A stretch of DNA of 64,000 bases from Streptomyces sp. NBC_00289 (lineage in GTDB: Bacteria > Actinomycetota > Actinomycetes > Streptomycetales > Streptomycetaceae). The stretch's first letter is position 1; each line of letters starts with the position of its first letter. Below, one piece after another: positions 11,547 to 61,140 of the stretch. The stretch spans positions 4,216,001 to 4,280,000 of the forward strand of contig NZ_CP108046.1 in NCBI RefSeq assembly GCF_041435115.1, read 5' to 3'. The translations under genes and the position numbers were made by a program. A model generated the notes under the pieces. That model made no database searches. It was not told where the DNA came from and saw nothing but the letters and a program-made list of their open reading frames with translations.

Positions 11547-11576
11547 CGGTCGCCAACGGGGGTCGAGGACGCGGGC

Positions 11577-11740
11577 GCGGTCACGAGGCCGCCACCGCCG
11601 GACGCGCACACACGCGCGGTCACGAGACCGCCACCGCCCGACGCGCACACGCGCGTGATCACGAGACCGCCACCGCCCGACGCGCACACGCGCGCGGTCA
11701 CGAGGCCGCCACCGCCGGACATGCACGCGGGCGTGATCAC
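11577..11740. repeat. 39-bp tandem repeat, about 4.2 copies
   Basis: Units begin at 11577, 11616, 11655, 11694 and 11733, each led by GCGGTCACGAG or GTGATCACGAG. The period is a multiple of three, so the minus strand keeps an open frame of 13-residue Arg-rich repeats joined to the GtrA gene. It is either a non-coding leader or an optional N-terminal extension. Confidence 0.88.
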
Positions 11741-14914: not shown

Positions 14915-15670
14915 GTGAAGGACGCCTTCGGCATTCCCCAGTCCCTGCTCGTCCTCGGCGGTACGTCCGAGATCGCGCTGGCCACCGCCCGCCGGATGAT
15001 CGCCCGCCGCACCCGCACGGTGTGGCTGGCGGGGCGCCCCTCCCCCGCCCTGGACACGGCCGCCGCGCAACTGCGCGCGCTGGGGGCCGCTGTGCACACC
15101 GTCGCCTTCGACGCGCTCGACCCCGAGTCCCACGAGGCGGTGCTCGGGAAGGTCTTCGCCGAGGGCGACGTCGACATGGTGCTGCTCGCCTTCGGAATCC
15201 TCGGCGACCAGGCGCACGACGAGCGTGAGCCGGTGAACGCGGTGCGCGTCGCCCAGACCAACTACACGGGCGCGGTGTCGGCGGGCCTGGTCAGCGCCGG
15301 CGCACTGCAGGCCCAGGGCCACGGCTCCCTCGTGATCCTCTCCTCCGTCGCCGGCGAACGGGCCCGCCGCTCCAACTTCATCTACGGCTCCAGCAAGGCC
15401 GGCCTGGACGCCTTCGCCCAGGGGCTGGGCGACGCCCTGCACGGTACGGGCGTCCACGTCATGGTCGTACGCCCCGGGTTCGTCCGCTCGAAGATGACCG
15501 CCGGACTTGAGGAGGCCCCGCTGGCGACGACGCCGGAAGCCGTCGCGGCGGCCGTCGAGCTGGGGCTGCGCAGGCGGTCGGAGACGGTGTGGGTGCCAGG
15601 GGCACTGCGGATGGTGATGTCGGCGTTGCGCCACCTGCCGCGTTCGGTGTTCCGACGCCTGCCGGTCTGA
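14915..15670 (+). CDS. dprE2: Decaprenylphosphoryl-2-keto-ribose reductase (DprE2-like short-chain dehydrogenase)
   Basis: This 251-residue SDR protein starts at a GTG with AGGAGC upstream. It has the nucleotide-binding turn LLVLGGTSEIALATA, the catalytic serine in VILSSVAGER and the YGSSK motif. The family reduces the 2'-keto intermediate made by DprE1, giving decaprenylphosphoryl-arabinose. It completes the pathway encoded by the neighbouring genes. The C-terminus (HLPRSVFRRLPV) resembles mycobacterial DprE2. Confidence 0.93.
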   Translation: MKDAFGIPQSLLVLGGTSEIALATARRMIARRTRTVWLAGRPSPALDTAAAQLRALGAAVHTVAFDALDPESHEAVLGKVFAEGDVDMVLLAFGILGDQAHDEREPVNAVRVAQTNYTGAVSAGLVSAGALQAQGHGSLVILSSVAGERARRSNFIYGSSKAGLDAFAQGLGDALHGTGVHVMVVRPGFVRSKMTAGLEEAPLATTPEAVAAAVELGLRRRSETVWVPGALRMVMSALRHLPRSVFRRLPV

Positions 15671-15773
15671 CGGCTTCGGGACGGTGTGACGGCCTGTCGG
15701 GGTCCCGGTGATCGCCGGCCTGACGGCTTCGGGACGGTGTGACGGCCTGTCGGGGTCCCGGTGATCGCCGGCC
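15668..15773. repeat. Perfect 53-bp tandem duplication
   Basis: Two identical 53-bp copies, each starting TGACGGCTTCGGGACGG, abut directly. The first begins in the dprE2 stop codon. A partial, diverged third copy follows. Such perfect copies imply a recent duplication in the convergent spacer between dprE2 and the 2'-5' RNA ligase-like gene. Confidence 0.95.
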
Positions 15774-15833
15774 TGACGCCTTCGGGGCGGTGGCACCGTC
15801 CCGACGCCTACCGTCCGGCGATGCGCGGGCGGC

Positions 15834-20257: not shown

Positions 20258-21709
20258 TCAGCCGAGGTCGATCTCCGGGTAGAGCGGGAAGCCGGCCACG
20301 AGGTCGGTGGCGCGGCGGGAGATCTCGTCCGCGATCTTCGGGTCGAGGATGTGCTGGGCCTTGGAGGGAGCACCCTTGCTCGTCGTGCCGGGCTCCGTGG
20401 TGGTCAGGACGCGGTCGATGAGGCTCGCGACCTCGTCCATCTCGGCGGTGCCGAGACCACGGGTGGTGAGGGCCGGCGTGCCGATGCGGATGCCGGAGGT
20501 GTACCAGGCACCGTTCGGGTCGGCCGGGATGGCGTTGCGGTTGGTGACGATGCCGGACTCGAGCAGCGCGGCCTCCGCCTGGCGGCCGGTGAGTCCGTAG
20601 GAGGAGGTGACGTCGATCAGGTTGAGGTGGTTGTCGGTGCCGCCGGTGACGAGCGTGGCGCCTCGGCGCATCAGGCCCTCGGCGAGAGCGCGGGAGTTGT
20701 CCACGATGCGCTGGGCGTAGCCGCGGAAGGAGTCCTGGCGGGCCTCCGCCAGAGCCACCGCCTTGGCGGCCATGACGTGCGGGAGCGGACCGCCGAGAAC
20801 CATCGGGCAGCCGCGGTCGACCTGGTCCTTGAGGGAGTCGTCGCACAGGACCATGCCGCCGCGCGGGCCGCGCAGCGACTTGTGGGTGGTGGTGGTGACG
20901 ATCTGGGCGTGCGGTACGGGATCGAAGTCGCCGGTGAGGACCTTGCCGGCGACGAGACCCGCGAAGTGGGCCATGTCGACCATGAGCGTGGCGCCCACCT
21001 CGTCGGCGATCTCGCGCATGATGCGGAAGTTCACGAGACGGGGGTAGGCGGAGTAGCCGGCGACGATGATGAGCGGCTTGAAGTCGCGGGCGGTGGCGCG
21101 CAGGGCCTCGTAGTCGAGGAGGCCGGTGGCGGAATCGGTGCCGTAGGAGCGCTGGTCGAACATCTTGCCGGAGATGTTCGGGCGGAAGCCGTGGGTGAGG
21201 TGGCCGCCGGCGTCCAGCGACATGCCCAGCATGCGCTGGTTGCCGAAGGCCTGGCGCAGTTCGGCCCAGTCGGCGTCGGAGAGGTCGTTGACCTGACGGA
21301 CGCCGGCCTTCTCCAGGGCGGGGACCTCGACGCGCTGAGCGAGGACGGACCAGAAGGCGACGAGGTTGGCGTCGATGCCGGAGTGCGGCTGGACGTAGGC
21401 GTGGCGGGCGCCGAACAGTTCCCGGGCGTGTTCGGCGGCGAGGGCTTCGACCGTGTCGACGTTGCGACAACCGGCGTAGAAGCGGCGGCCGATGGTGCCC
21501 TCGGCGTACTTGTCGCTGAACCAGTTGCCCATCGCGAGGAGGGTGGCCGGGGAGGCGTAGTTCTCGGAGGCGATCAGCTTGAGCATCTCGCGCTGGTCGG
21601 CGACCTCTTGGCCGATGGCCTCGGCGACGCGCGGCTCGACGGCGCGGATCACGTCGAGGGCGGCTCGGAAGGCGGTGGACTCGGTGGAGAGGGGCTGCTG
21701 CTCTGACAT
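20258..21709 (-). CDS. glyA: Serine hydroxymethyltransferase (long actinobacterial form)
   Basis: This 483-residue PLP enzyme interconverts serine and glycine, loading one-carbon units onto tetrahydrofolate. The PLP lysine is K277 in [14 protein letters not shown], and [16 protein letters not shown] and [10 protein letters not shown] are recognisable family blocks. It is about 60 residues longer than E. coli GlyA, with an insertion at about 125-165 ([16 protein letters not shown]) seen in actinobacterial homologues. GGAGG precedes the ATG. A ZTP riboswitch lies in its leader, tying expression to one-carbon/purine status. Confidence 0.97.
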
Positions 21710-22115: not shown

Positions 22116-23036
22116 GTGCTCTTTGGAATGGTGTGCGCGCTTGGTGCCGCGGTCTGCTTCGGAACGGCGACGGTGTTGCAGGCGGTCGCCACACGTACGG
22201 CGGACGCGGGTGAAGGGGGCGGGGACGCGGCGCTGCTGCTGCGCGCGTTGCGGCAGTGGCGGTATCTGGCCGGGCTCGCGCTGGACGGGGCAGGCTTCGT
22301 ACTCCAGGTCGCCGCGCTGCGGTCGATCCCGATCTACGCCGTGGGCGCGGCCCTGGCCTCCAGTCTCGCGGTGACCGCGGTCGTCGCGGCGCGGCTGCTC
22401 AAGGTCCGGTTGAGCCGTGCCGAGTGGGGCGCCGTGATCGTGGTGTGCGCCGGGCTCGGGATGCTGGCGCTGGCGTCCGGGACGGAAGGGGAACGGACCG
22501 GGCCGACGGCGCTGAAGTACGCGATGCTCGCCACGGCGGCCGGTGTGCTGGCCCTGGGCGCGCTCGGCGGGCGGCTGCCGGAGCGGGGGCGGCCACTCGC
22601 CCTCGGGCTGGGCGCCGGGTTCGGGTTCGGGGTGGTGGAGGTGGCGGTCCGGCTCATCGACGACGTGTCACCCGGCGCGCTGCTCACCAATCCGGCGACG
22701 TACGCGCTGCTCCTGGGCGGCGGCGCGGCGTTCCTGCTGCTCACCTCGGCGCTCCAGCGCGGCTCGGTGACGACGGCCACGGCCGGGATGGTGATCGGGG
22801 AGACGATCGGGCCGGCGGCGGTGGGCGTGGTGTGGCTGGGCGACCGTACGCGGGAGGGGCTGGAGTGGCTGGCCCTGCTGGGTTTCGCCGTGGCCGTGGT
22901 GGGGGCGTTGGCGTTGGCGCGGTTCGGGGAGATTCCGGCCGAGGTGCCCTCGGACGACGACACCCTCGTCAGCCCGTCGCCTTCGCCCCCACCTTTGTCC
23001 CCGCCTTCGTCTCCAACCCCTCCATCGTCTCCGTGA
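22116..23036 (+). CDS. DMT/EamA-like multi-pass membrane transporter
   Basis: About 306 residues with nine or ten helices, beginning [20 protein letters not shown]. The ATG four codons in is an alternative start. The pattern of two five-helix halves with small-residue helices ([40 protein letters not shown]) fits the drug/metabolite transporter superfamily. The substrate is unknown. The C-terminus is a Ser/Pro tail. Its 3' end overlaps the convergent DUF3050 gene by 68 bp, and the tail is encoded within that overlap. Confidence 0.87.
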
Positions 23037-23796
23037 TGCCGTCCCACAGGCGGGACCTCGCTTCCAGCGCGAGGGTCGCCGTCTCGACGGCCTCCTGCCA
23101 GCGGGTGTCGTCCGTGCCGCAGAGGTCGGCGACCATCTGCATGGCCATGGGGGTGTGCTCCTCGCCGTCGACCTCGATATGGCGGGCCAGGTAGTCGCGG
23201 AAGAGCGGGAACCGTGCGGTGCCCTCCTTCTTGATCACCTGGTCGAACATGTCCGGGATGAGGTCCTCGCGGGAGAAGGCGAAGGCGGCCGCCCGGCAGT
23301 GCAGGGGCCGGTCGGCGATGATCCCGAAGGTCGTGCGCACGAACTCGGCGGCGGGGGCGGGGACCTGGGCGACACGCAGCGCCGACGACACGTCGTGCCC
23401 CTCCCCGACGAGTGCGAGGAACGTGTCGATCCTGGTCGTGTCGGCCTCCGCCTCGGCCATGCCGGCCCGGTACAGCTCGAAGTGGCTGGTGAAGCCGCCG
23501 TTCAGCTCGTCGCTCTCCTCGACCAGCACGATGTCGTTGATGAGCCGTCGGCTGACCTCCGAACCGCGCGGCACCCAGGGCACGTCGACACAGGTGAGTT
23601 CCCGTTGCAGTGACTTGAGCAGGGACATGAAGTCCCATACCGCGAACACGTGGTGCGACATGAAAGCCGCGAGGTGTTCCCGGTCGGTTATCCGTTGGTA
23701 GATCGGGTGGGCGGTGACTTCTTTTCGCGCGGGTTCGATCGCGGAACGGGCCCGGTCGATTCCCTCGTCGGTCAGATTCCAGTCGTACCTGGGCAT
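22969..23796 (-). CDS. DUF3050 protein (heme-oxygenase-like fold, possible diiron oxygenase)
   Basis: About 275 residues. I chose the ATG of [12 protein letters not shown], with GGAG 8 nt upstream, over an upstream TTG. The sequence matches DUF3050: [36 protein letters not shown] and [17 protein letters not shown]. His and Glu/Asp residues recur in positions suited to the metal ligands of TENA/PqqC-like or heme-oxygenase-like diiron oxidases, some of which N-oxygenate amines. No enzyme activity is established for this family to my knowledge. It heads the divergent arm of the aminobenzoate island, so oxidation of an arylamine is an attractive guess. Confidence 0.85.
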
Positions 23797-24005
23797 GGAT
23801 ACTCCATTCAGAGCCGGAGAGCGATCGTGCAACTTTCTCGGCGACTCCGGCAAGCGCTTCCTGGAATTCCGTAGAAGTTACCCCGGGTATCGCTCGACAG
23901 AAGAGGTCAAGCGGTCGGAAAGTCTCTGAAAAGTAACGTTCCGGACAGCCGGAAAACTTCGTTGAATCTTTGAACGCGCCGGGTCTTCATTCCGTACTCG
24001 TCGGC
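23797..24005. promoter_or_regulatory. Divergent control region of the aminobenzoate island
   Basis: This 209-bp stretch is AT-rich for the genome and separates the DUF3050 gene from the plus-strand run. It contains a perfect inverted repeat TTCCGG-ACAG-CCGGAA at 23939-23954, a candidate operator. No pathway-specific regulator gene is nearby to pair with it. Confidence 0.5.
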
Positions 24006-24584
24006 GTGACCAGTAATCCCGTCACCGTCACCGTGGCCTATCACGTGGTGCCGGGCCGCGAGGCCGAGTTTCATTCCTGGGGGTGGGCCCTGCTGGGCGC
24101 GAGCGCCCGGCAGTCGGGCTTCCTGGGGGGTGGCGTTCTTGTCGACCGAGAGGCGGAGTGGCATGTCGTCTATCGCTTCGCCAGTGAGGGCACGGCCCGG
24201 GCCTGGGAGGACTCGACCGCCCGGGTGCAGTGGGACGCCCGGGTGGTGGGCTTCGCCCGGCAGACCGGCCGCACGAGTGTGCGGGGCTCCCAGGCCTGGT
24301 TCGACTCCCAGACCGCCACACCGAAGGCACCGGCCCCGCCGTCGAAATGGAAACTGTGGTTTGTGAACATGAGCGCGGTTTTCCCGCCGGTGCTTATGTT
24401 CAATCTGATCGTGCTCCCCTATCTTGGCGGCCTTAATGCGTTCGTTCGCACACTGCTGTTGTGCCTGTGCGTGACGGCCCTCGTCACCTGGATTCTCATG
24501 CCGCGCCTTCAGCGTTTCTTCAAGAAATGGCTGTATCCACCGCTCCAGGCACTGCGCGGACGACACAAAAGACGGACGGCATAG
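24006..24584 (+). CDS. Membrane-bound antibiotic biosynthesis monooxygenase (ABM)-family protein
   Basis: This 192-residue protein starts at GTG (an in-frame TTG 12 codons upstream is possible). Residues 1-100 form an ABM-type dimeric alpha/beta barrel (VTVTVAYHVVPGREAEFHSW, AWEDSTARVQWDARV). The C-terminal third has two helices (FPPVLMFNLIVLPYLGG and TLLLCLCVTALVTWILM) and a basic tail. Similar ABM-plus-membrane proteins are widespread and mostly uncharacterised. ABM domains can oxidise aromatics without cofactors. It precedes pabAB by 30 bp, so is likely co-expressed with it. Confidence 0.85.
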   Translation: MTSNPVTVTVAYHVVPGREAEFHSWGWALLGASARQSGFLGGGVLVDREAEWHVVYRFASEGTARAWEDSTARVQWDARVVGFARQTGRTSVRGSQAWFDSQTATPKAPAPPSKWKLWFVNMSAVFPPVLMFNLIVLPYLGGLNAFVRTLLLCLCVTALVTWILMPRLQRFFKKWLYPPLQALRGRHKRRTA

Positions 24585-24614
24585 CCCCGAGAACGACCCG
24601 AGGGAGGTGGGCGG

Positions 24615-27038
24615 GTGAAGACCCTGCTCATCGACAATTACGACTCGTACACGTACAACCTGTTCCAGCTGATCGCCGAGGTCAACGGCGAGGAACCGGT
24701 GGTGATCCTCAATGACGCGCCCGCCGGCGCCATGGAGAATCTCGCGGAATTCGACAACGTGGTGGTGTCGCCGGGCCCGGGGCACCCGGCGACGGCGCGT
24801 GACTTCGGCATCAGTGCCCGGATGCTCGCCGAGTCCCCGGTCCCCGTACTCGGCGTCTGCCTCGGCCACCAGGGCATCGCCCTCGGGGAGCACGGCCGGG
24901 TGGCCCCCGCCCCCGAACCCCGGCACGGGCATCTGTCCACGGTCCGGCACGACGGGCGGGACCTGTTCCAGGGACTGCCGCAGAACTTCACCGCGGTCCG
25001 CTACCACTCGCTGTCCGTACGAGAGCCGCTGCCCGAAACGCTGGAGGCCACCGCCTGGGCGGAGGACGGCGTCCTGATGGGCCTGCGACACCGCAGCAGG
25101 CCGCTGTGGGGGGTGCAGTTCCACCCGGAGTCGGTGCTCACGGAGTACGGCCACCGCATGCTCGTGAACTTCCGCAACCTGACGGCGGAGCTGGCCCGCA
25201 AGACCCGTGCGAAGAACACCGCGGTGCCCCGGACCGAGGCGTCGGTGCCCCGTCCGGCGGGCAGATCGTCGGCCGCGGCCGGCACGTCGTCCCACAACGC
25301 CGGACCGTCTGTCCGGGCCGGCGCCAGGTCGGGCGCGGGCGCCACATCGGCCGGGGCGGGCGCCGGGTCGCACGCGAACGCCGGACCCGCCGAGACGGGC
25401 GCCACAGCGCGCCCGATCGACCCGTCCCCGACGGCTCCCGCGTCGCTTGAGTCGCCCGCGTCACCCACCTCGACGTCACCCACGACCATCCCCCGCCCCC
25501 GGCGTGCCGGCCGTCCCGCGTTTCGGCTGCACACCCGGCGTGTCGCCGGAGCGGTCGACGCGGAGGCCGCGTTCACGCGGATGTACGGTGCCTCGCCGCG
25601 GGCGTTCTGGCTGGACAGCTCCCGTGTCGAGCGGGGGCAGTCCCGCTTCTCGTTCTTCGGTGACGACAGCGGCCCACTCGCCGAGTTCGTCCGCTACGAC
25701 GTCGAGGCCGGCCGCTGTGAGATCGAGCGGGCCGGGCGGCCCACGCGCAAGGTCGCGGCGAGTGTCTTCGACTACCTCAAGCGGCAGTTGACGAGCCGTC
25801 GGGTGGACGCGACCGGGCTGCCCTTCGACTTCACCGGCGGCTACGTGGGCTACTTCGGCTACGAGACGAAGTCCGACTGCGGCTCGCCGAACCGCCACCG
25901 TGCCGAAACGCCGGACGCCTGCTGGCTGTTCGCCGACCGGCTGATCGCGGTGGATCACCAGAAGGGCTTCACCTACGCGGTCTGCCTGGCGGAGGACACC
26001 CCGCAGGCAGCCGGGGAGGCCACCGACTGGCTGGAGAGCGCGCTGGCGCAGCTCACCTTCGTCGCGGCGGACCCCGGCACGGCGCCGCCGACCGTGCCGC
26101 CCGAGGGTCCGGACCTCGCCGCCGCCGAGCCGTGGCTGGTGCGCGGCCGGGACACCTATCTCGCGGACATCGAGGCCTGCCAACGGGAACTCAGGGCCGG
26201 CACCAGCTACGAGATCTGTCTGACCAACGCCGCCCGGTTACCCGCACCGCCCGACGCGTACGAGTTCTACCGGGTGCTGCGCCGCGTCAATCCGGCGCCG
26301 TACGCGGCCTTCCTGAGATTCGGCGACCTCGACGTGGCCTGTTCCTCACCCGAGCGGTTCCTGCGGATCACGCGGGACGGTGTCGCCGAGGCCAAGCCGA
26401 TCAAGGGCACCGCGCCGCGGGGTGACGGGCCCCGGGAGGACGCCCGGCTCCGGGACGCGCTGGCGGCGGACGCCAAGACGCGTGCCGAGAACCTGATGAT
26501 CGTCGACCTGCTCCGCAACGACCTGGGCCGGGTCTGCCGTACCGGGTCCGTGCGCGTGTCCCGGCTGATGGCCACCGAGACGTACGCGACCGTGCACCAG
26601 CTCGTCTCCACCGTCGAGGGGCGGCTGCGGGAGGGCACGGACGCGGTGGACTGCGTGCGGGCGTGCTTTCCCGGCGGGTCGATGACCGGCGCGCCGAAGC
26701 TGCGCACGATGGAGATCATCGACGGGCTGGAGACCGAGGCCCGCGGGGTCTACTCCGGGGCCCTCGGCTATCTGGGGTGCAGCGGCGGCGCGGACCTGAG
26801 CATCGTCATCCGTACGGCCGTGCTGGCGGACGGTCTGATGCGGCTGGGCGCCGGTGGCGCGATCGTCCTCGACTCCGATCCGGTCGCCGAGTACGACGAG
26901 ATGCTGCTGAAGACGGCCGCGCAGATGCGGGCCCACCGGGAACACACGGTCGCCCGGATCCGGGGGGAACGTACGGAGACCGCGGCTCGGGCCGGTGCCC
27001 GGGTCCGCCGGACCGTCGCCGAGGAGCCCGCGCGATGA
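24615..27038 (+). CDS. pabAB: Fused aminodeoxychorismate synthase (PabA-PabB)
   Basis: This 807-residue fusion makes 4-amino-4-deoxychorismate from chorismate and glutamine. Residues 1-195 are the class I amidotransferase, with C82 in GVCLGHQG and H170/E172 in FHPES. An Ala/Pro/Ser-rich linker of about 95 residues follows. The chorismate-binding half carries PIKGTAPRG with K597; lysine here marks PabB rather than anthranilate synthase. FPGGSMTGAPKLRTME closes the site. The start is GTG with GAGGGAGG upstream. Codon 542 is TTA, which needs the bldA tRNA in Streptomyces. It overlaps the next gene in ATGA. Confidence 0.95.
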   Translation: MKTLLIDNYDSYTYNLFQLIAEVNGEEPVVILNDAPAGAMENLAEFDNVVVSPGPGHPATARDFGISARMLAESPVPVLGVCLGHQGIALGEHGRVAPAPEPRHGHLSTVRHDGRDLFQGLPQNFTAVRYHSLSVREPLPETLEATAWAEDGVLMGLRHRSRPLWGVQFHPESVLTEYGHRMLVNFRNLTAELARKTRAKNTAVPRTEASVPRPAGRSSAAAGTSSHNAGPSVRAGARSGAGATSAGAGAGSHANAGPAETGATARPIDPSPTAPASLESPASPTSTSPTTIPRPRRAGRPAFRLHTRRVAGAVDAEAAFTRMYGASPRAFWLDSSRVERGQSRFSFFGDDSGPLAEFVRYDVEAGRCEIERAGRPTRKVAASVFDYLKRQLTSRRVDATGLPFDFTGGYVGYFGYETKSDCGSPNRHRAETPDACWLFADRLIAVDHQKGFTYAVCLAEDTPQAAGEATDWLESALAQLTFVAADPGTAPPTVPPEGPDLAAAEPWLVRGRDTYLADIEACQRELRAGTSYEICLTNAARLPAPPDAYEFYRVLRRVNPAPYAAFLRFGDLDVACSSPERFLRITRDGVAEAKPIKGTAPRGDGPREDARLRDALAADAKTRAENLMIVDLLRNDLGRVCRTGSVRVSRLMATETYATVHQLVSTVEGRLREGTDAVDCVRACFPGGSMTGAPKLRTMEIIDGLETEARGVYSGALGYLGCSGGADLSIVIRTAVLADGLMRLGAGGAIVLDSDPVAEYDEMLLKTAAQMRAHREHTVARIRGERTETAARAGARVRRTVAEEPAR

Positions 27039-28558
27039 CGACTGCGCAGACCGCGCCGACTCCGGCCGACGCCGAGGCCCCCGGCAACCTGGCGGCGCAC
27101 CTCGCCGCACTCGCCGAGCGTCGCGGCTGGACCGACCGGCCCGCCTTCCACCAGGGTCACCGGGCCTGGACCCACGGGGAGGTGCACGACCTCGGGTCCC
27201 GGGCGGCCGCGGTGTTCGCAGGGCTCGGTGTGCGTCCCGGGGACCGGGTGCTGCTCGCCCTGCCCGACGGGATCGCCTGGGTGACGGCCTTCCTGGGGGC
27301 AGCCCGCCTCGGTGCCGTGGCCGTCCTGGTCAACCCGGAACTCCCCGCCGCCGAGCACGGGTTCGTGGCCGAGGACACCGAGGCCGTGCTGTGCGTGACC
27401 GGGCCGGGCCTGGAGGAACGGTTCTCCGACCGGGCTTGCCTCGGCGCCGACCAGCTGGTCGCGCTCGGCGCCGCCGCCGAACCGGCCGCCGCCCACCCGG
27501 TCGACGCGCACGCCCCGCTGTACGTCCAGTACACGTCCGGTACGACGGGCCGCCCCAAGGGGGTCGTGCACTGCCACGCCGACCCGAAGACGTACCACGA
27601 CCTGATCGGCCGACGGCTGCTGCGGATCACCCCGGACGACGTCACCCTGTCGGTGTCGAAGCTGTACTTCGCCTACGGCTTCGGCAACGCCTTCGTCTTC
27701 CCGCTCTTCTCCGGCTCCTCCGCCGTACTGGTGGACCGGCGTCCGGCCCCGGCCGCCGTCGACGAACTCGTCGCCCGGCACCGGGTGACCCTGCTCTACT
27801 CCGTACCGTCCGCGTACGCCGCGCTCGTGGCCGACCGGGGCAGCGGACACGGGGCCTGCTTCGCCTCCCTACGGGCGGCGGTGTCGGCCGGCGAGGGCAT
27901 GCCGGCCGGGCTCGGCCGGCAGGTCACCGAGCTGCTCGGCGCACCGGTCCTGGAGCAGATCGGCTCCACCGAGGCGGGGCACGCCTTCTGCGCCAACAGC
28001 TTCGAGCACAACCACCCGGGCACGGTCGGCCGTCCCGTCCCCGGCTTCGAGGTGGAGCTGCGCGACCGTGCCGGGCAGCCGGTGCCGGACGGCGCGACGG
28101 GTGAACTGTGGGTGCGCGGGCCGACGGTGACGCCCGGCTATCTGAACCGGCCCGAGGAGACGGACCGCGCCCTGGTCGGCGGCTGGCTCGCCACCCGGGA
28201 CCGGGCCCGCCGCGAGCCGGACGGCAGCTACCGTCACCTGGGCCGCAGCGACGACATGGAGATGGTCGGCGGCATCACCGTCTCCCCGTTGGAGGTGGAG
28301 GCCGTGCTGCGCGCCCATCCGGCGGTGAGGGAGGTCGCGGTCGCCGCCGTCACGGACGGGCGCGGCTTCAGCCGGCTGCGCGCGTTCGTGGTGCCCGTCG
28401 CAACGCCGTCGGCCCGGCTGGAGGACGACCTCGTCGGTCTGGCCCGTGAGCGCCTCGCCGCGTTCAAGGTCCCCAGAAGCGTCAGTTTCGTCCCGTCGCT
28501 GCCCCGCACCCCGACCGGAAAGCTCCGCCGGCACCTGGTCCGCCAGGGCGCCTGGTGA
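27035..28558 (+). CDS. Benzoate-CoA-ligase-like acyl-CoA synthetase
   Basis: This 507-residue ANL-family enzyme has the P-loop YTSGTTGRPKG (166-176), the A5 region QIGSTEAGH and the catalytic lysine K496 in TPTGKLRR. The SKLYFAYGFGNAFVFPLF stretch is characteristic of benzoate-CoA and aminobenzoate-CoA ligases. Since the gene overlaps pabAB (ATGA) and the run ends with an ADC lyase, 4-aminobenzoate or a hydroxylated derivative is the natural substrate guess. Its stop overlaps an upstream GTG of the next ligase frame. Substrate specificity cannot be read by eye. Confidence 0.9.
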   Translation: MTTAQTAPTPADAEAPGNLAAHLAALAERRGWTDRPAFHQGHRAWTHGEVHDLGSRAAAVFAGLGVRPGDRVLLALPDGIAWVTAFLGAARLGAVAVLVNPELPAAEHGFVAEDTEAVLCVTGPGLEERFSDRACLGADQLVALGAAAEPAAAHPVDAHAPLYVQYTSGTTGRPKGVVHCHADPKTYHDLIGRRLLRITPDDVTLSVSKLYFAYGFGNAFVFPLFSGSSAVLVDRRPAPAAVDELVARHRVTLLYSVPSAYAALVADRGSGHGACFASLRAAVSAGEGMPAGLGRQVTELLGAPVLEQIGSTEAGHAFCANSFEHNHPGTVGRPVPGFEVELRDRAGQPVPDGATGELWVRGPTVTPGYLNRPEETDRALVGGWLATRDRARREPDGSYRHLGRSDDMEMVGGITVSPLEVEAVLRAHPAVREVAVAAVTDGRGFSRLRAFVVPVATPSARLEDDLVGLARERLAAFKVPRSVSFVPSLPRTPTGKLRRHLVRQGAW

Positions 28559-28644
28559 CCGGGCCGGGGCCGGTGACCAGGACAGAGCCGCCGACCAGGA
28601 CCGACCTGGTGACCACGAAAGAACGCCAAGAGAGGAACGGCGCC

Positions 28645-30222
28645 ATGCAAGAGCAGCAGACCCTGCTCGCCGACCGCGGGTTCTACCTGGGCCCGGTGTT
28701 CCGGCGGGCCGCCGACCGCCACGGAGCCGTCTTCGTCACCCTGGACCGCCCGCTGGACGTCCGTCCCGAGCTGGGGTGCGACCTCAGCTATCCGGTGCTG
28801 GCCGACGTCGTCGAGGAACTGTCCGGCCGGCTGTGGAAGGCCGGGGTGCGGCCCTCGGAACAGGTGGTCGTCCACAAGTCGGACAACGTCGACATCGTGC
28901 TGCTGACCTGTGCCGTCTCCCGTATCGGCGCGGTTCCGGTGCTGCTCTCCCCCGCGCTGGCCGGCCCCGTGGTGGGACAGCTCCTCGGCCGTCTCCAGCG
29001 GCCCTGGCTGATCACCGACAGAGCCAAGCTGGACGGCCCCCTGCGGGACGTCGACGTCTCCGCGCTCGTACGACGGACCCTGTCCGTGGACGACGCGTCC
29101 GGAGCGGACCTTCTGGAGAAGTACGCCGGGGCCGCGCCTCCCGCGCCGGTGCGGCTGCACCCCAGGGACCCCTCCCTGATCACGCACAGCTCGGGCACCA
29201 CCGGCCTCCCCAAGCTGGCCGTGCACTGCGCCAACACCATGTGGAACCGCCTCGTACCGCAGAAGGCGATGGGCTGGCCCACCCGTGGCGAGACCGCGGC
29301 GCTGCACATGTCCTTCGTGCACTCGCGCTTCTACCATCTGCTCGGCTTCCTGCTGCACTTCGGCAGCCCGCTCGTGCTGATCACCGACCCGGAACCGGCG
29401 GCCGTGGGTCCGATGCTGGTGCGGCACCGCCCCGGCATCGTCGAGACCCACCCCAACACCTTCGTGCTGTGGGAGGAGTTGGCGGACGCGCCGGGCGCGC
29501 CGCTGTCGCGGGTCCGGTCGTACGGCTCCACGTTCGACGCGATCCACCCGCGTACCGTACGGCGGCTGCTGGACGCCTCGAAGCGCCGTTCGCCCTGGCT
29601 GATCCAGCTGTACGGGCAGAGCGAGACGGGGCCCGTCGCGTTCCAGTGGTTCACGCGGCGCAGCGCGGCCCGCGCGGACGGGCGGCGGGTCGGGACCGGC
29701 ATCCCCGGCTTCACCCGGATCCGTGTCACCGACCCCGACGGCAGGCGGGTCGCGCCCGGCACGCCCGGCCGGATGTAGGCGCGCACCAGGGGTCGCATCC
29801 TCACCTATCTCGGCGCCCGGGAGCAGTACGAGCGTCAACTCGACGGCGGCTGGTGGCAGATGGGCGACATGGGCTACCGGAGTCGGCTGGGCGCGCTGCG
29901 TCTGATCGACCGTGAGGTCGATCAGATCGACTCCGTGCACAGCAATCTGGAGGTCGAGGACACGCTGATGTCCCGCCTGGAGGAGCTGCGGGAGGTCGTC
30001 ATCGTGCCCGGCGTGGACCGCGAGCCGGTGCCCGTGGTGTGTGTGCGGGGCGAACGTGCCCTCGACCCGGAGCGCTGGCGGGAGGCCACCGCCGATCTGC
30101 CCGCGATGGCCGAGCCGCGGCAGTGGCGGTTCGAGGAGCTGCCGATGACCGCCACGTGGAAGGTGAAGCGGGTGGAGATCACCCGCATGCTGGCCACGAC
30201 GCCAGAGAGCACGCGCGCGTGA
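28645..30222 (+). pseudogene. Second AMP-dependent ligase interrupted by an in-frame TAG
   Basis: The frame encodes an ANL ligase of about 525 residues starting at MQEQQTLLADRG (GAGAGGA upstream), with P-loop HSSGTTGLPKL and A5 motif LYGQSETGP. A TAG at 29776-29778 stops it after 377 residues, at GTPGRM. The same frame continues without a shift through RTRGRILTYLG, WWQMGDMGYRSR and the C-terminal lysine region MTATWKVKRVEI to a TGA that overlaps the next gene. The truncated product lacks the mobile C-terminal domain needed for adenylation. It may be a recent nonsense mutation, a sequencing error, or two pieces working in trans (restart possible at 29860). Confidence 0.85.
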
Positions 30223-31394
30223 AGCCGGTCGTCGTGGTCGGCGCCGGCCCCGTGGGACTGTCGGCGGCCCTGGGACTGCGGGCGGGCGGACTGCCGGTCG
30301 TCCTGCTGGAGGCGGACCCCGAGAACCGCGAACGGCCGGGCAGCCGCGCCCTGTTCGTGCACCGGGAGACCCTCGGCCTGCTCGACGGGATGTCTCCCGG
30401 GCTCGCCGCCGAGATCACGTCGTACGGACGGACCTGGCAGACCCGGCGCACCCTCTACCGGGGCCGCGAGGTGTACGCCCGGACCTTCCCGCGGGCCTCC
30501 GGCACGCCGCCCTTCACCAGCCTGCGCCAGGTGGACACCGAGCGCTTCCTGCGCGCCGCCTGCGAGCGGGCGGGGGTCGAGTTCGTGTGGGGCGCCCGCG
30601 TCACGCGCGTCCGCAGCACGGAGACGGGCGTCTCGCTGACCGGTGAGGACGGGCGGGTGTGGACGGGCGCGTACGCCGTCGCCGCCGACGGTGCCCGCTC
30701 CGCGGTCCGGCGGGAGCTGGGCATCGCCATGGAGGGCGTTCGGGGTGAGGGCTTCCACGTGGTCGTGGACGTGGCCGACGTCCCGGGCGCGGAACTGCCG
30801 CTGGAGCGGGTCTTCCACTACGAGCATCCGGGGACCGGCGGCCGCAGCGTGATGCGGGTGCCGTTCACCGGGGGCTTCCAGGTCGATCTGCAGTGCCGGG
30901 ACGAGGACGCGGAGGAGGCCTACGGCACCGAGGAGGCCGTACGCCGGTGGCTGCCCGGGGTCGTCGGGGACGGGTACGACGAGCGGATCCTGTGGGTGTC
31001 GACGTACCGTTTCCTGCGGAAGGTCGCGGCCTCCTTCACCGATCCCCACCGGCGGGTGCTGCTGGTCGGGGAGGCGGCGCATCTCTTCCCGCCGTTCGGC
31101 GCGCGCGGCATGAACAGCGGGATCGCGGACGCCGCCGCGGCGGCGAAGGCCGTCGCGACCGGTACGGCGGGGGCGGTCGCCGGGTTCGCCGAGGTACGGC
31201 GTGCGGCGGGCCTGTACAACAGCGCCGCCGCCGGGGCCGCGCTGGAGCACCTGCGGCCACGGCGCCGGATCGTCCGGGTCCGGCAGCGTGCCGCGGCGGT
31301 CCTCTCGCCCGTGCTGCCCCGGTGCGGGTCGTGGCTGGAGCACGCGCCGTACGGGCCCCGGCGCGGGGCGCCGGCGGCGACCGGCACGTACTGA
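30219..31394 (+). CDS. FAD-dependent aromatic hydroxylase
   Basis: This 391-residue flavoprotein monooxygenase has the GxGxxG fingerprint VVGAGPVGLSAALGL, the DG motif at 157-158 (VAADGARSAVRR) and the second FAD motif VGEAAHLFPPFGARGMNSGI. Glutamate E285 replaces the usual aspartate of GD. The group hydroxylates phenols or aminobenzoates using NAD(P)H and oxygen; 4-aminobenzoate hydroxylases that release 4-hydroxyaniline are one precedent. The GTG overlaps the broken ligase stop in GTGA. Substrate is inferred from neighbours only. Confidence 0.9.
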   Translation: MKPVVVVGAGPVGLSAALGLRAGGLPVVLLEADPENRERPGSRALFVHRETLGLLDGMSPGLAAEITSYGRTWQTRRTLYRGREVYARTFPRASGTPPFTSLRQVDTERFLRAACERAGVEFVWGARVTRVRSTETGVSLTGEDGRVWTGAYAVAADGARSAVRRELGIAMEGVRGEGFHVVVDVADVPGAELPLERVFHYEHPGTGGRSVMRVPFTGGFQVDLQCRDEDAEEAYGTEEAVRRWLPGVVGDGYDERILWVSTYRFLRKVAASFTDPHRRVLLVGEAAHLFPPFGARGMNSGIADAAAAAKAVATGTAGAVAGFAEVRRAAGLYNSAAAGAALEHLRPRRRIVRVRQRAAAVLSPVLPRCGSWLEHAPYGPRRGAPAATGTY

Positions 31395-31404
31395 GGAGGA
31401 ACAG

Positions 31405-32205
31405 TTGACGACACGATCGGCGATCGCGGAAGGGCTGTCGACCTGGACGCCCGGCCGGGGCCTGGTCGCGGCGGCCGCGGACGGAGGCGGACGGCTGCTC
31501 GCCGCGGACTCGTGGCTGCTGCGCGAGGGCCGGATGCGCGGGTACGCCCGGCACCGGGAGCGGTTTCTGCGCGCGTGCGCCGAGTGCGGCGGGCCGGGGC
31601 CGCGCCGGCTGGTCGAGTTCTGGCAGGACGTGACCGCCGTACTGCCGCGCACGGGTGAGTGGTTTCCCCGGGTGGAACTCACGGCGGGATCAATGGAGTT
31701 GCGGCTGCTGCTGCGGCAGGCCCCGCCGCTCGCCCGCGAGGTGCGGGTCTGGGCGGCGGGGCAGCCCGATCCGCGGACCGCCCCGCGTCGCAAGGGCCCG
31801 GACCTGGACGCCCTGGCCCGGGTCCGCGGGCGGGCCTTCGACGAGGGTGCGGAGGAGGCGGTGCTCGTCACGCCCTCCGGTCTCGTGCTGGAGTCGGCCA
31901 CGGCGAGCGTGCTGTGGTGGGAGGACGACACCCTGTGCCTGCCCTCGCCGCGGCTGCCCGTCCTGGCCGGGGTGACCGCCGGGCTCGTCCAGGAGCGGGC
32001 CCGGCGCTCGGGAGTCCGGGTCGCGTCTCGCGAGCGGACCGTGGCGGAGCTGGACGGCCGTGAGGTGTGGCTGGTCAACGCGCTGCACGGGATCCGGCCG
32101 GTGACGGGCTGGATCGGACGGCCGATGAAGGCGGCACCGGCGGCGCGTGCCGAAGAATGGCGAAATTGGCTGGACGACATCCTGGAGCCGCTGCCGACCG
32201 ACTGA
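31405..32205 (+). CDS. pabC: Aminodeoxychorismate lyase-like class IV PLP enzyme
   Basis: This 266-residue fold-type IV protein starts at TTG behind a strong GAGGAGG. The PLP lysine is K130 in APRRKGPDLDALARVR, and E163 lies in GLVLESATASVLWW, as in PabC. It should eliminate pyruvate from aminodeoxychorismate to give 4-aminobenzoate. Together with the fused PabAB four genes earlier it makes the island self-sufficient for that acid. The N-terminal 100 residues are less conserved, so a relative such as a D-amino acid aminotransferase is a weaker alternative. Confidence 0.88.
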   Translation: MTTRSAIAEGLSTWTPGRGLVAAAADGGGRLLAADSWLLREGRMRGYARHRERFLRACAECGGPGPRRLVEFWQDVTAVLPRTGEWFPRVELTAGSMELRLLLRQAPPLAREVRVWAAGQPDPRTAPRRKGPDLDALARVRGRAFDEGAEEAVLVTPSGLVLESATASVLWWEDDTLCLPSPRLPVLAGVTAGLVQERARRSGVRVASRERTVAELDGREVWLVNALHGIRPVTGWIGRPMKAAPAARAEEWRNWLDDILEPLPTD

Positions 32206-32253
32206 ATTCCCCTGCCGAAAAGCTGCGCCGGGACACGTCCGGACGTGCTCAGA

Positions 32254-32294
32254 AAACTGCGCCGGATCGAATTGCCTTCGACCCGGCGCAGTTT
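32254..32294. terminator. Strong bidirectional terminator at the end of the aminobenzoate island
   Basis: An 18-bp stem with one mismatch surrounds a 5-nt loop. The outer arms are AAACTGCGCCGG and CCGGCGCAGTTT. It sits between two convergent genes, 49 nt after the ADC lyase stop and 14 nt from the AhpD-like stop, and has A/T ends on both sides. Confidence 0.88.
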
Positions 32295-32307
32295 CCGCTG
32301 CCTGAAT

Positions 32308-32799
32308 TCAGCTCTTCTTCTGGGCGGGCTGATAAGCCCCCGGAACCATCCGCGTCGCGATCGCGATCCGGTTGTACGCGTTGATGACGGTGACCGCCCA
32401 GATCAGCGCCGCCACCTGAGCCTCGTCGAAGACCGCCGCCGCCTCGGCGTAGACCGCGTCCGGGACGTGGCCGTCGTGGACCAGGGTCACCGACTCGGTC
32501 AATGCCAGCGCGGCGCGCTCCCGTTCGGTGAAGAAGGGGGTCTCCCGCCAGGCGTTCAGCGCGTAGAGGCGCTGCTCGGTCTCGCCCTGGGCACGGGCGT
32601 CCTTCGTGTGCATGTCGAGGCAGAACGCGCAGCCGTTGATCTGCGAGGCGCGGATCCTGACCAGTTCCAGGATCTCCGGCTCCACCTTGGCGTCCTGGGC
32701 CGCGGAAACGGCGGCACCGTGCAGGGAACCCATCGCCGCGGAAACGCCGGGGGTTATCTTTTTGAGGGCTGCGCGGGATATGGAATCACTGTTGCTCAT
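32308..32799 (-). CDS. AhpD-like carboxymuconolactone decarboxylase-family protein
   Basis: This 163-residue protein has the AhpD/CMD core: ELVRIRASQINGCAFCLDMHT with the redox CxxC (C-A-F-C) and a nearby histidine. Members act as peroxidase partners or unknown oxidoreductases. The ending VINAYNRIAIATRMVPGAY is typical of the single-domain form common in Streptomyces. It converges on the aminobenzoate island across a strong terminator, so is probably not part of it. It is 82 bp from the betaine-binding protein gene on the same strand, with a hairpin between. Confidence 0.92.
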   Translation of the reverse strand: MSNSDSISRAALKKITPGVSAAMGSLHGAAVSAAQDAKVEPEILELVRIRASQINGCAFCLDMHTKDARAQGETEQRLYALNAWRETPFFTERERAALALTESVTLVHDGHVPDAVYAEAAAVFDEAQVAALIWAVTVINAYNRIAIATRMVPGAYQPAQKKS

Positions 32800-32881: not shown

Positions 32882-33838
32882 TCACGACAGCCATGCCTTC
32901 CAGGTCGAGGCGTGGGTGTCGACCCATTTCTTCGCCGCCTCCTCCGGTGCCAGTTTCTGGTCGGCGATCATCAGGGAGACCTCGTTCTGGTCCTCGGTCG
33001 TCCACCTGAACTTCTTCAGGAAGGCCGCCGCCCTGCCGCCGCTCCTGGCGAAGTCCGCGTTGAGGTACTTCTGCAGCGGGGTGTGCGGGTAGGCGCAGGC
33101 GACCTTGTCGGGGTCGGCGTCGCAGCCCTCCTTGTACGCCGGCAGCTTCACCTCGGTCATGGGGACCTTCTTGAACAGCCACTGCGGGGCGTACCAGTAC
33201 GTCAGGAAGGGCTTCTTCTCCTTCGCGAACTGCTTCATCTGCGTGATCTGCGCGGCCTCCGAACCGGCGAACACCACCTGGTAGTTCAGCTTCAGGTTCT
33301 TCACCAGCGCCTTGTCGTTGGTGACGTAGGACGGGGAGCCGTCCATCAGCTGGCCCTTGCCGCCGCTCTCCGCGGTACGGAACCGGTCGGCGTACTTGTT
33401 CAGGTTCTTCCAGTTCGTGACGTCCGGGTGCTGCTTGGCGAAGTACGTCGGGACGTACCAGCCGATGTGCCCGGTCACCCCGAGCCCGCCGCCCCGCCGG
33501 ATCGTCTTCTTGTCGTCGACGTACCGCTTCTCCTGGTCGGGGTGGCCCCAGTCCTCCAGGATCGCGTCGACGCGGCCCTGGCTGAGCGCGTCCCAGGCGG
33601 GGACCTCGTCGACCTGGACGGTGTCGACGCGGTAGCCGAGCTTGTGCTCCAGGAGGTACTGGGCGACGGCGACGTTGGCCTGCGCGCCGACCCAGGACTG
33701 CACCGACAGGGTGAGGGTCTTGGCGCCCTGGGCGTTGGCGAACGGTGAGGCCTGCTTGGTCATGTCGGCGGCGCCGCAGCCGGTGAGCAGCAGCAGTGAG
33801 GCTCCGGCGGCCACCGCGGACGTGGTACGGACTCGCAT
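32882..33838 (-). CDS. Glycine betaine/choline ABC transporter substrate-binding lipoprotein (ProX/OpuAC type)
   Basis: This 318-residue lipoprotein has a signal peptide ending in the lipobox LLTGC (C21). Family pieces include SWVGAQANVAVAQYLLEHKLGY, VPAWDALSQGRVDAILEDW and several Trp/Tyr residues (HIGWYVP, TYWYAPQWLF) that could form the aromatic cage for a quaternary amine. It is the last gene of an operon with BetA, BetB, ATPase and permease, so choline or glycine betaine uptake is likely. One base separates it from the permease gene. Confidence 0.94.
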   Translation of the reverse strand: MRVRTTSAVAAGASLLLLTGCGAADMTKQASPFANAQGAKTLTLSVQSWVGAQANVAVAQYLLEHKLGYRVDTVQVDEVPAWDALSQGRVDAILEDWGHPDQEKRYVDDKKTIRRGGGLGVTGHIGWYVPTYFAKQHPDVTNWKNLNKYADRFRTAESGGKGQLMDGSPSYVTNDKALVKNLKLNYQVVFAGSEAAQITQMKQFAKEKKPFLTYWYAPQWLFKKVPMTEVKLPAYKEGCDADPDKVACAYPHTPLQKYLNADFARSGGRAAAFLKKFRWTTEDQNEVSLMIADQKLAPEEAAKKWVDTHASTWKAWLS

Positions 33839-33839
33839 G

Positions 33840-35782
33840 TCAGGCTCCCTTCCTGGCGCGGCGTTCCGTCGGCTGGGTCACCCGGTCGAGCATCAGGCCG
33901 AGGCAGACGATCGCGGCTCCGGCCACCAGACCGGTCGCCAGGTCGCCCTGGGCGAGGCCGAAGACGGCGTCGTAGCCGAGCGCGCCGCCGCCGACTAGAC
34001 CGCCGATGACGACGACGGCGAGGACCAGGACCACGCCCTGGTTGACGGCGAGCAGCAGCGCCGGCCGGGCCAGCGGAAGCTGGACCTGGCGGAGTTGCTG
34101 GCCGCTGGTCGCGCCGAGGGAGCGCGCCGATTCCAGTGCCGCGGGGTCGACCTGGCGCAGGCCCTGGGCGGTGATGCGGACGACGGCGGGCAGGGCGTAG
34201 ACCACGGCCGCGGCGACGGCGGGGGCGCGGCCGACGCCGAACAGGGCGACGACGGGGATCAGGTACACGAACTGCGGCATCGTCTGGAAGACGTCCAGGA
34301 CGGGCCGCAGCAGCCGTTCGAGGCGGTCGCTGCGGGCGGCCGCGATACCGATGGCGAAGCCGAGGACCAGGGTGACGGCGACCGCCGCCAGCACCTGGGA
34401 CAGCGTGTCCAGCGAGGGCTGCCAGACGCCGAGGACACCGATCGCGGCCATGGCCAGGACGGCGGTGAGCGCGGTGCGCCAGGTGCCGATCAGCCAGGCC
34501 AGGGCGGCCACCACGAGCAGGACCGACCACCAGGGCAGCCACTGCAGGCCGTCGCGGACCGGGTCGAGGACCCAGGTGGTGAAGTGGCCCGCCCAGTCGG
34601 CGGTGCCGCCCACGTAGGGCACGCCCGAGTACAGGTGGGCGGTCATCCAGTCAACGGCACGGTTGACGGGGTCGGCGATGTTCACCGTCCACGCGTCGGG
34701 CCAGTCGAGCCGGCCGACCAGCCGCCCGGCGAGGCCGACGGCGACGACGGCCACCAGGCCGTACGCCCAGTGTCCGCGCTCCTTGCGGTCCTCCCCGAGG
34801 CGCTCCCCCGCCGCGCCGGTCACCCGGTCCAGGACGACGGCGAGCAGCACGATCGGGATGCCGGCGGCGAGCGCCGCGCCCACGTCGACCGAGGCCAGCG
34901 CCTGGTAGACGCGGTCACCCAGGCCGCCCGCGCCGATCACGGACGCGATGACCGCCATGGACAGCGCCATCATGATCGTCTGGTTGAGGCCGAGCAGGAG
35001 TTCCTTGCGGGCCAGCGGGAGCCGCGCGGTCAGCAGGCGCTGCCGGGCGGTGGCGCCCAGCGACTCGACGGCTTCCAGGACGCCCTTGTCGGCGCCGCGC
35101 AGGCCCAGCGCGGTGAGGCGGGCCATGGGCGGGGCGGCGTAGACGACGGTGGCGAGGACCGCCGCGGGGACGCCGATGCCGAAGACGAGGACGACGGGCA
35201 GCAGGTAGGCGAAGGCGGGCAGCACCTGCATGGTGTCGAGGACCGGACGCAGCGCCCGGTCCGTGCGGTCGGACAGGCCCGTCGCCAGGCCGAGCAGGGC
35301 GCCCACGACAACTGAGGTGAGCACCGCGACGACCATCAGGGCGAGGGTCTGCATGGTCGGCACCCACATGCCGAGCAGACCGCAGGCGAGGAACGCGGCG
35401 GCGGTGCCGGCCGCGAGCCGCACCCCGGCGACCCGCCACGCGACGAGCCCGGCGAACGCGGTGACGCCGGCCCAGCCCGCCGCCAGCAGGACGAGGTAGA
35501 CGGCGCGCACGGACAGCACGACGGCGTTGCTGAGATAGCCGAAGAAGTAGAGGAACAGGGGGTGGCTGTCCCGGTTGTCGATGATCCAGTCACTGGCGCT
35601 GGTGAGCGGCGCGGACACGTCGACGGTGAGCGCCTGCGGCCAGCTTCCGCCGGACCAGCGGGCGTTGGCGAGCGGGACGAGGACCGCCGCGGCGAGGGCG
35701 AGCAGCAGCAGCTTGTGCACGGCACGGTGTTTGAGGACACCGGGCAGCGCGATGCGGGGGACGGATGCGGTGACCGTTGCCA

Positions 35783-35783
<1 letters not shown>
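33840..35783 (-). CDS. Betaine ABC permease with two fused ProW-like domains
   Basis: This 647-residue protein is an internal duplication. Each half has about six helices and the same permease signature: VLDTMQVLPAFAYLLPVV ... ESLGATARQRLLTARLPLA and VLDVFQTMPQFVYLIPVV ... RSLGATSGQQLRQVQLPLA. Most OpuAB/ProW permeases are half this length and dimerise; here the dimer is one chain. The ATG follows AAAGGAGG and shares one base with the ATPase stop (TGATG). It forms the channel for the adjacent binding protein. Confidence 0.94.
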
Positions 35784-36879
<1,096 letters not shown>

Positions 36880-36883
<4 letters not shown>

Positions 36884-48145: not shown

Positions 48146-48746
48146 CACTTCCCCCCTCTTCCCCCCGGTTCGTGCTGGCTGTCCCCCGGTTGTTCCGGTC
48201 GGCCCGCCCTCCTCCCGTGTGCGGTCGTCCCCCGAGTCCCCGTTCCGCCCGTTCTGGCCTACCCACAGGGATGCGCCCGGTCGGGATCCCAGTTCCCGTC
48301 TCAGGGGCGCACAGGAGCGTCGGGACGCGGGCGCACGCCGTCGCACGCCCCGGCATATGCGAGGGACGTCCGGACCCGTCCGAACCATCCCGATTACCAC
48401 GCTAACCCCGCCGCCGGACGACGTCGGGCCGCCTGCACGAAGTTGCCGGCCGGTCACCGCGGCGAGCGCGCAAGGCCGGTCACCGCGGCGAGCGCGCAAG
48501 CCGGTGTCACAGGGCGAGCGCGCAAGGACGGTCACCGCAGGGAGCGCCCGAGGCGGGTCACAGCCGCGGGCGCAAGGCCGGTCACCGCAGCGAACACACA
48601 AGGCCGGTCACCGCAGCGAGCGCACAAGCCGGTGTCACAGGGCGAGCGCGCAAGGACGGTCACCGCGGCGAGCGCCCGAGGCGGGTCACAGCCGCCGGCG
48701 CGGCGGGCCGGCACGGTCGCCCCCGTGCGTCACCCGCGTGCCCGGC
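48146..48746. other. Intergenic region with nested repeats between two HTH genes
   Basis: This 601-bp gap lies between the DUF2690 HTH gene and its shorter paralogue on the same strand. The half near 48145 should hold the DUF2690 gene promoter; the other half is the repeat array listed separately. No gene was recognised. Confidence 0.5.
48452..48707. repeat. Nested tandem repeat: two 128-bp blocks of five about 26-bp units
   Basis: Ten units of 24-27 bp start with GGTCAC or GGTGTCAC and most contain GCGAGCGCRCAAG. Units 1-5 (from 48452) and 6-10 (from 48580) correspond pairwise, so a five-unit block was duplicated. Without unique spacers it is not a CRISPR array. Confidence 0.9.
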
Positions 48747-61034: not shown

Positions 61035-61140
61035 GTCGCGGGCACGGATCACCGGTCGCGGGCGCGGATCGCTCGTCGCCGGCGCGGATCGCCCGTCGCG
61101 GGTGTGGATCACTCGTCGCAGGCGCGGATCACTGATCGTT
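61035..61140. repeat. 20-bp tandem repeat, about 5.3 copies
   Basis: Units with consensus GTCGCGGGCGCGGATCACTC repeat every 20 bp between the HTH-sigma-like stop and the sucD terminator. Each carries a GATC. Non-coding; role unknown. Confidence 0.9.

Follow-up and report, generated by a model that had tools for sequence, protein, structure and literature searches.

A conserved five-gene module of Streptomyces that probably directs the synthesis of a 4-aminobenzoate-derived metabolite

The phgABC genes reportedly convert 4-hydroxybenzoate into gentisate through formation of a coenzyme A (CoA) ester, hydroxylation accompanied by a 1,2-shift and hydrolysis, as described in parts of PMC7862547. 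For the nybomycin (nyb) and streptonigrin (stn) pathways, sections of PMC6265801 and one table in PMC11206028 name the ligases NybO and StnJ, and nothing on what NybO or NybP does was found in passages of PMC6965495 and PMC12573870. XimA of xiamenmycin biosynthesis is an ATP-dependent amide synthetase of 520 aa, the activity of which has been tested (excerpts of PMC4053376). Here, we describe a gene island of Streptomyces sp. NBC_00289 that shares elements with each of these systems. The island occupies positions 22969–32799, including a convergent gene at its end, of a 64,000-nucleotide stretch (hereafter, the window) corresponding to positions 4216001–4280000 of contig 1 in an 11.0 Mb genome of 6 contigs. 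With a probability of roughly 0.6, we consider it to be an operon dedicated to the biosynthesis of a small metabolite derived from 4-aminobenzoate.

The core of the island consists of 5 genes on the forward strand. PabAB (24615–27038) is a predicted fused aminodeoxychorismate synthase, with the glutamine amidotransferase domain preceding the chorismate-binding domain; it scores 341.9 bits against the NCBI pabB equivalog TIGR00553 (cut-off 328.4) and carries the PIKGT motif, which we take to mark PabB enzymes. The following gene, the start of which overlaps the PabAB stop, encodes a benzoate-CoA-ligase-family enzyme (BCL; 27035–28558). Tested as the long open reading frame 26663–28558, BCL scores 382.7 bits against the benzoate-CoA ligase model TIGR02262 (cut-off 375.25), and its nearest solved chain is the benzoate-CoA ligase 2v7b (312.5 bits). 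LIG2 (28555–30222, starting either at GTG 28555 or at ATG 28645) encodes a second class I adenylate-forming ligase (PF00501), which is interrupted, FADH (30219–31394) an FAD monooxygenase (PF01494, 153.8 bits), and the last gene (31405–32205, with a probable TTG start after GAGGAGG) a PabC-like aminodeoxychorismate lyase of the Aminotran_4 family (PF01063, 89 bits), which falls below the cut-off of every PabC equivalog listed (best 44.7 versus 253 bits). The overlapping stops and starts reported in the original prediction are real: four-base overlaps join PabAB to BCL (ATGA, 27035–27038), BCL to LIG2 (GTGA, 28555–28558) and LIG2 to FADH (GTGA, 30219–30222). All of the genes that it had named are present, and profile searches recovered DUF3050 (PF11251), PabAB, BCL, LIG2, FADH and the PabC-like protein; its gene list did not include the convergent gene on the reverse strand (32308–32799) encoding an AhpD-like carboxymuconolactone decarboxylase family protein (CMD; PF02627, 68.3 bits).

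The neighbourhood is conserved, as had been anticipated. We assessed the presence of the core genes by tblastn in 80 relative loci, 77 of them titled Streptomyces, which a single scan retained out of 93 confirmed loci; genes in these loci were called by GC content at third codon positions, which can take the wrong frame, and tblastn with known proteins corrected some of the calls (for instance, PabAB and PabC in L091). BCL and LIG2 are present in all 80 loci, FADH in 79, PabAB in 77, and PabC and CMD in 75 each. All 5 core genes occur together in 73 of the 80 loci, and in all 73 they are collinear, in a single order and on a single strand, which rules out a strain-specific accident; the 5 genes are inherited together. 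CMD is convergent in 70 of the 72 loci with more than 4.5 kb of downstream sequence, the exceptions being L086, in which none was found, and L088, in which it lies on the other strand. Within the genus, 53 of 392 genomes, own genome included, have FADH at E ≤ 1e-120, and across the class, 13 of 394 genomes have it at E ≤ 1e-50; the module was present in 8 of the 10 FADH-bearing genomes of the genus that were viewed. In one genome (G367), contig 1 contains 2 FADH matches (82439–83614 and 10046941–10048116) with identical scores and opposite orientations near both contig ends, as if the cluster resided inside terminal inverted repeats.

The module is not confined to Streptomyces islands and was also found beside PKS-like genes in G028 and in three other families, as in G589, G460 and G722. 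Counterparts in larger clusters are located on plasmid pSMg1-1 of Streptomyces sp. Mg1 (L128) and on a plasmid of strain ADI95-16 (L147), where the 5 core genes and CMD, with 47–67% identity, are accompanied by an AMP-ligase/aldehyde-dehydrogenase pair, a 3-deoxy-D-arabino-heptulosonate 7-phosphate (DAHP) synthase, a fatty acyl-AMP ligase (FAAL), 3 desaturases, an acyl carrier protein (ACP), a rubredoxin and a cytochrome P450. The set from FAAL to cytochrome P450 is reminiscent of polyyne clusters. In G028 (family f3; L091 and L123), the module adjoins genes for a ketosynthase and a tryptophan-halogenase-family protein (Pfam), and further genes appear ketosynthase- and ACP-like by eye, suggesting an aromatic-headed polyene or polyketide. 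In G589 (f19), the module again occurs with an AMP-ligase/aldehyde-dehydrogenase pair and DAHP synthase. The arrangement varies in G460 (f20), where DUF3050, LIG2, BCL and PabAB are divergent from FADH and PabC, and in G722 (f19), where PabAB, PabC, FADH and BCL are together and LIG2 is partial at the contig end. Thus, the 5 genes constitute a portable module, an observation new in this analysis. The original view of a small island needs changing, as the module also recurs inside larger clusters; no polyketide synthase (PKS) or nonribosomal peptide synthetase was seen among the island genes, as originally noted, although elsewhere the module adjoins PKS-like or fatty-acyl genes. Overall, the gene set is a genuine biosynthetic module that is conserved and has apparently not been described before, and it represents a variant of aminobenzoate-derived clusters. 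It had originally been matched to no described cluster, and indeed, neither a paper on the gene set nor a product was found in the open-access PubMed Central (PMC) literature, in a comparison that did not extend to MIBiG or antiSMASH and in which the Mg1-type cluster was not searched by name.

In the pathway that we propose, PabAB and PabC would convert chorismate into 4-aminobenzoate, an assignment that is strong for PabAB and fair for PabC. BCL, judging from its family and neighbourhood, would then activate 4-aminobenzoate as 4-aminobenzoyl-CoA or as the acyl-adenylate, FADH would hydroxylate the activated ring, and LIG2 would activate the product for coupling to an amine or alcohol, or reload it. 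CMD, the protein with an ABM-like domain and, where present, DUF3050 might serve as accessory redox or tailoring proteins. 4-Aminobenzoyl-CoA would be the shared intermediate, and the BCL-FADH pair resembles a system for CoA-dependent ring hydroxylation. If the chemistry parallels that of PhgABC on 4-hydroxybenzoate, FADH would most likely hydroxylate C1, with the thioester migrating to C2 to yield 5-amino-2-hydroxybenzoyl-CoA (5-aminosalicyl-CoA), although we offer this position as a guess at somewhat less than even odds.

The relatives of FADH are in part consistent with such chemistry. FADH shares 44–48% identity with 4 haloarchaeal proteins and 50–51% with 2 Bacillales proteins, and among its solved relatives, all of them distant, are 4-hydroxybenzoate 3-monooxygenases as well as a chain that bears the name 4-hydroxybenzoate decarboxylase. 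In a phylogenetic tree of 34 rows from hand-chosen loci, a set that did not encompass the Bacillales proteins or PhgB, the 16 module-type rows form a single clade (support 97/95), which is sister to 10 haloarchaeal rows (99/100), with a joint support of 82/92. Of the 16 module rows, 15 have PabAB within the stretch (L109 does not) and 15 have BCL; all 5 core genes are present in 14, L086 being without PabC and L138 having only a partial LIG2. A carboxyl shift of the PhgABC kind reportedly occurs in an archaeon, going by a title in a reference list, and a gentisate pathway would hold cupin and fumarylacetoacetate-hydrolase genes. Among the 10 haloarchaeal regions viewed, out of 23 plasmid records, both genes are present in 5 (L129, L130, L131, L142 and L143) and the hydrolase gene only in L141 and L145, and 8 of the 10 (not L130 and L132) contain a gene annotated as AMP-binding, CoA ligase, CoA-binding or thioesterase. 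In Halorussus caseinilyticus (L141, 7276–9122), a gene of the chorismate pyruvate-lyase family, which would make 4-hydroxybenzoate, is located directly upstream of the FADH relative. Two assignments were rejected: the haloarchaeal proteins are not 3-hydroxybenzoate 6-hydroxylases, because 4bjy and similar chains (titled probable salicylate monooxygenase and representing that enzyme) score only 34–35 bits against the Natrinema protein, and FADH is not a hydroxylase of the NybP/StnH2 type, given an identity of 25–30%, over part of the length, to 3 NybP-like proteins, so named because their loci resemble those for streptonigrin and nybomycin. By sequence, FADH is a flavin monooxygenase, the relatives of which are often encoded near para-substituted-benzoate or gentisate-type genes.

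More speculatively, and with less confidence than in the C1 position itself, we suggest that Streptomyces may have turned the CoA-dependent, carboxyl-migrating (NIH-shift) hydroxylation used in 4-hydroxybenzoate breakdown into a building step, from 4-aminobenzoyl-CoA to 5-aminosalicyl-CoA, providing a portable head group that is used alone or on fatty-acyl or polyketide chains. Several observations weigh against the proposed pathway as a whole. Two loci (L108 and L109) carry FADH with no PabAB found in the stretch, and the tree tool put no star on the joint clade of module and haloarchaeal proteins. Other monooxygenases, those of Frankia gtarii (L136) and L137 and the second ones of L128 and L134, are equally similar to FADH (48–52% identity) yet lie apart from that joint clade, and the surroundings of L136 and L137 contain no recognisable gentisate genes; the subfamily may therefore serve more than one task. 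Neither a cupin nor a hydrolase gene is present in 3 of the 10 haloarchaeal regions (L132, L144 and L146), and identity between BCL and the AMP-ligase encoded near the Natrinema enzyme is just 30.7%. No thioesterase was found among the family hits of the scanned island genes, leaving PhgC without a counterpart, and in the authors' own use of phgABC, as reported in parts of PMC7862547, no significant gentisate was obtained.

A different view of the FADH step has to be weighed against this proposal, namely, that the enzyme performs ordinary chemistry, either ortho-hydroxylation to 4-amino-3-hydroxybenzoate or hydroxylation at C1 with loss of CO2 to 4-aminophenol, after which BCL and LIG2 would activate the product on the way to an ester, an amide or a benzoxazole. 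The nature of the distant solved relatives speaks for it, as do the second FAD_binding_3 gene in L135 and the proposal, found in sections of PMC6265801, that nybomycin arises through hydroxylation and decarboxylation of 4-aminoanthranilate. Yet FADH is far closer to the haloarchaeal and Bacillales proteins (44–51%) than to the streptonigrin/nybomycin-like hydroxylases, and it is accompanied by BCL in nearly all rows of its clade, so that we regard ordinary hydroxylation as possible but doubtful. Still less plausible is that LIG2 forms an N–N bond, acting as an ATP-dependent diazotase on an aminobenzoate with nitrite. The closest solved relatives of LIG2 by sequence, 9bq0 and 8tf7 (102 bits), point in this direction, the latter being titled Tri17, an enzyme of N–N chemistry, and the AvaA6 diazotase model in NCBIfam matches LIG2 with 49 bits. 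In a fold search with the predicted structure of an intact LIG2 relative (mean pLDDT, the predicted local distance difference test score, 85.3), aryl-acid adenylating enzymes, amide synthetases and diazotases, including CmaA6, match alike and are not separated. However, the solved relatives are distant (in the fold list, identity is 19–23%), the top 20 also contain aryl-acid adenylating enzymes and amide synthetases ranking alongside them, the island genes include none recognised as nitrite-making, and LIG2 is closer (45–50%) to the ligases of L089, L090 and L093, loci judged by eye to be streptonigrin/nybomycin-like; a diazotase is thus very unlikely, and LIG2 may rather form an amide or reload the product.

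The remaining explanations concern the purpose of the operon as a whole. PabAB and PabC are folate enzymes, and the island could in principle be a redundant folate-supply operon. The genome encodes 5 chorismate-binding matches, with the motifs PIAGT (1), PISGT (2) and PIKGT (the island protein and a second one), and immediately after the second PIKGT-type PabB match (8127838–8128584) comes an Aminotran_4 match, at 8128728. The island PabB/PabC pair is therefore not the only one in the genome, and given this other PabB and its Aminotran_4 neighbour, the island set looks dedicated, in line with the earlier claim of a 4-aminobenzoate pathway separate from folate supply. Considering also that FADH was detected in only 53 of the 392 genomes mentioned above and that no folate role is known for BCL, LIG2 or FADH, we judge a folate-only function to be highly improbable. 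Alternatively, the operon might feed an unlinked assembly line, encoded at another site in the genome, with 4-aminobenzoate or an oxidised form of it, as the proximity of the module to FAAL/desaturase or PKS-like genes in other strains would allow; this is unlikely in view of the same small gene set being kept in 73 of the 80 loci. A dedicated operon for a small 4-aminobenzoate-derived metabolite remains the preferred reading. As the module also recurs in larger clusters of several families, the key chemistry, that is, which carbon is hydroxylated and whether the substrate is the CoA ester or the free acid, would inform several clusters, including one on linear plasmids that carries fatty-acyl desaturases.

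In the strain studied here, LIG2 is broken, as originally noted: a single in-frame TAG (29776–29778) ends the protein after 407 residues, the frame being otherwise open to 30222. By contrast, LIG2 is uninterrupted in all 80 relative loci, each yielding a single match that covers more than 85% of the gene product. Compared with the 12 nearest loci, mean identity is 90.3% after the stop and 87.9% before it, and since the distal part is as conserved as the proximal part, old decay is ruled out and the stop represents either a recent mutation or an assembly error. No spare copy is evident, because the next best match in the same genome is only 28% identical (E = 6.7e-12), and the LIG2 step is probably lost or blocked in this strain. 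In Streptomyces sp. NPDC087903 (P0125), FADH is 97% identical to that of the window, yet the best LIG2 match listed is 90% identical; LIG2 of that strain may also be broken, or hidden by database clustering. More distant LIG2 relatives (34–35%) in L099, L100 and L102 have neighbours that by eye are kynureninase/tryptophan-dioxygenase-like, hinting at 3-hydroxyanthranilate-type substrates for these ligases.

Upstream of the core, the divergent DUF3050 gene (22969–23853, reverse strand; likely start ATG at 23796; PF11251, 323.6 bits) encodes a heme-oxygenase-like putative di-iron oxygenase. The protein carries an HxxxDxxxH motif, and a solved relative is 9vwb (184 bits); with the PF11251 match and the His-Asp-His metal motif, it is assigned to the heme-oxygenase-like di-iron proteins, the ligand set of which is described in parts of PMC4520260. 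According to sections of PMC3298696, MgoB of the mgo operon is a DUF3050 protein, and DUF3050 was not found in the main text of PMC8154892. The gene had been listed in the set to be sought in other actinomycetes; it occurs in 33 of the 62 loci with more than 6.5 kb of upstream sequence and in the distant locus L135, and it is an accessory gene. The protein encoded between DUF3050 and PabAB (23970–24584, forward strand), present in 61 of these 62 loci, had been called an ABM-family membrane protein; the gene is there, but the ABM label is weak (PF03992, 19.0 bits, under the cut-off of 23.1) and the C-terminal hydrophobic segment, presented as the membrane part, was judged by eye only. Beyond the island, a glycine hydroxymethyltransferase (SHMT) gene (20258–21709, reverse strand) flanks the DUF3050 side, with counterparts in 31 of the 62 loci, and on the CMD side positions 32882–36883 (reverse strand) appear by eye to encode a glycine-betaine ABC transporter-like system, ProX being present in 35 of the 69 loci with more than 9.5 kb of downstream sequence. 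Elsewhere in the window, tandem repeat arrays with periods of 20–128 bases are located at 11575–11740, 15661–15792, 41432–41609, 48448–48701, 58000–58304 and 61035–61133.

With PhgABC, the island shares an aryl-CoA-ligase-family enzyme and an FAD monooxygenase for a para-donor benzoate, as well as FADH relatives near gentisate-type genes in half of the haloarchaeal regions; unlike PhgABC, it would make its substrate in place, as 4-aminobenzoate, and has neither a thioesterase nor a gentisate dioxygenase. The nybomycin and streptonigrin pathways, as presented in a table of PMC6265801, likewise start from an aminobenzoate made from chorismate and use a ligase resembling LIG2 (NybO/StnJ) together with a flavin hydroxylase, but they employ an anthranilate-synthase-type enzyme and an isochorismatase, whereas the island synthase is of the PabB type, acting with PabC, family searches with the island genes yielded no isochorismatase, and the nyb/stn-like hydroxylases are the ones only 25–30% identical to FADH. 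XimA, which acts on an aryl acid (excerpts of PMC4053376), is like LIG2 a class I adenylate-forming enzyme, and LIG2 relatives in L098, L101 and L103 adjoin genes that are UbiA-like by eye, a resemblance of loci only; the island itself lacks UbiA, chorismate lyase and cyclase. The Mg1 and ADI95-16 plasmid clusters contain all 5 core genes and CMD, and differ from the island by the additional genes described above, from the AMP-ligase/aldehyde-dehydrogenase pair to the cytochrome P450.

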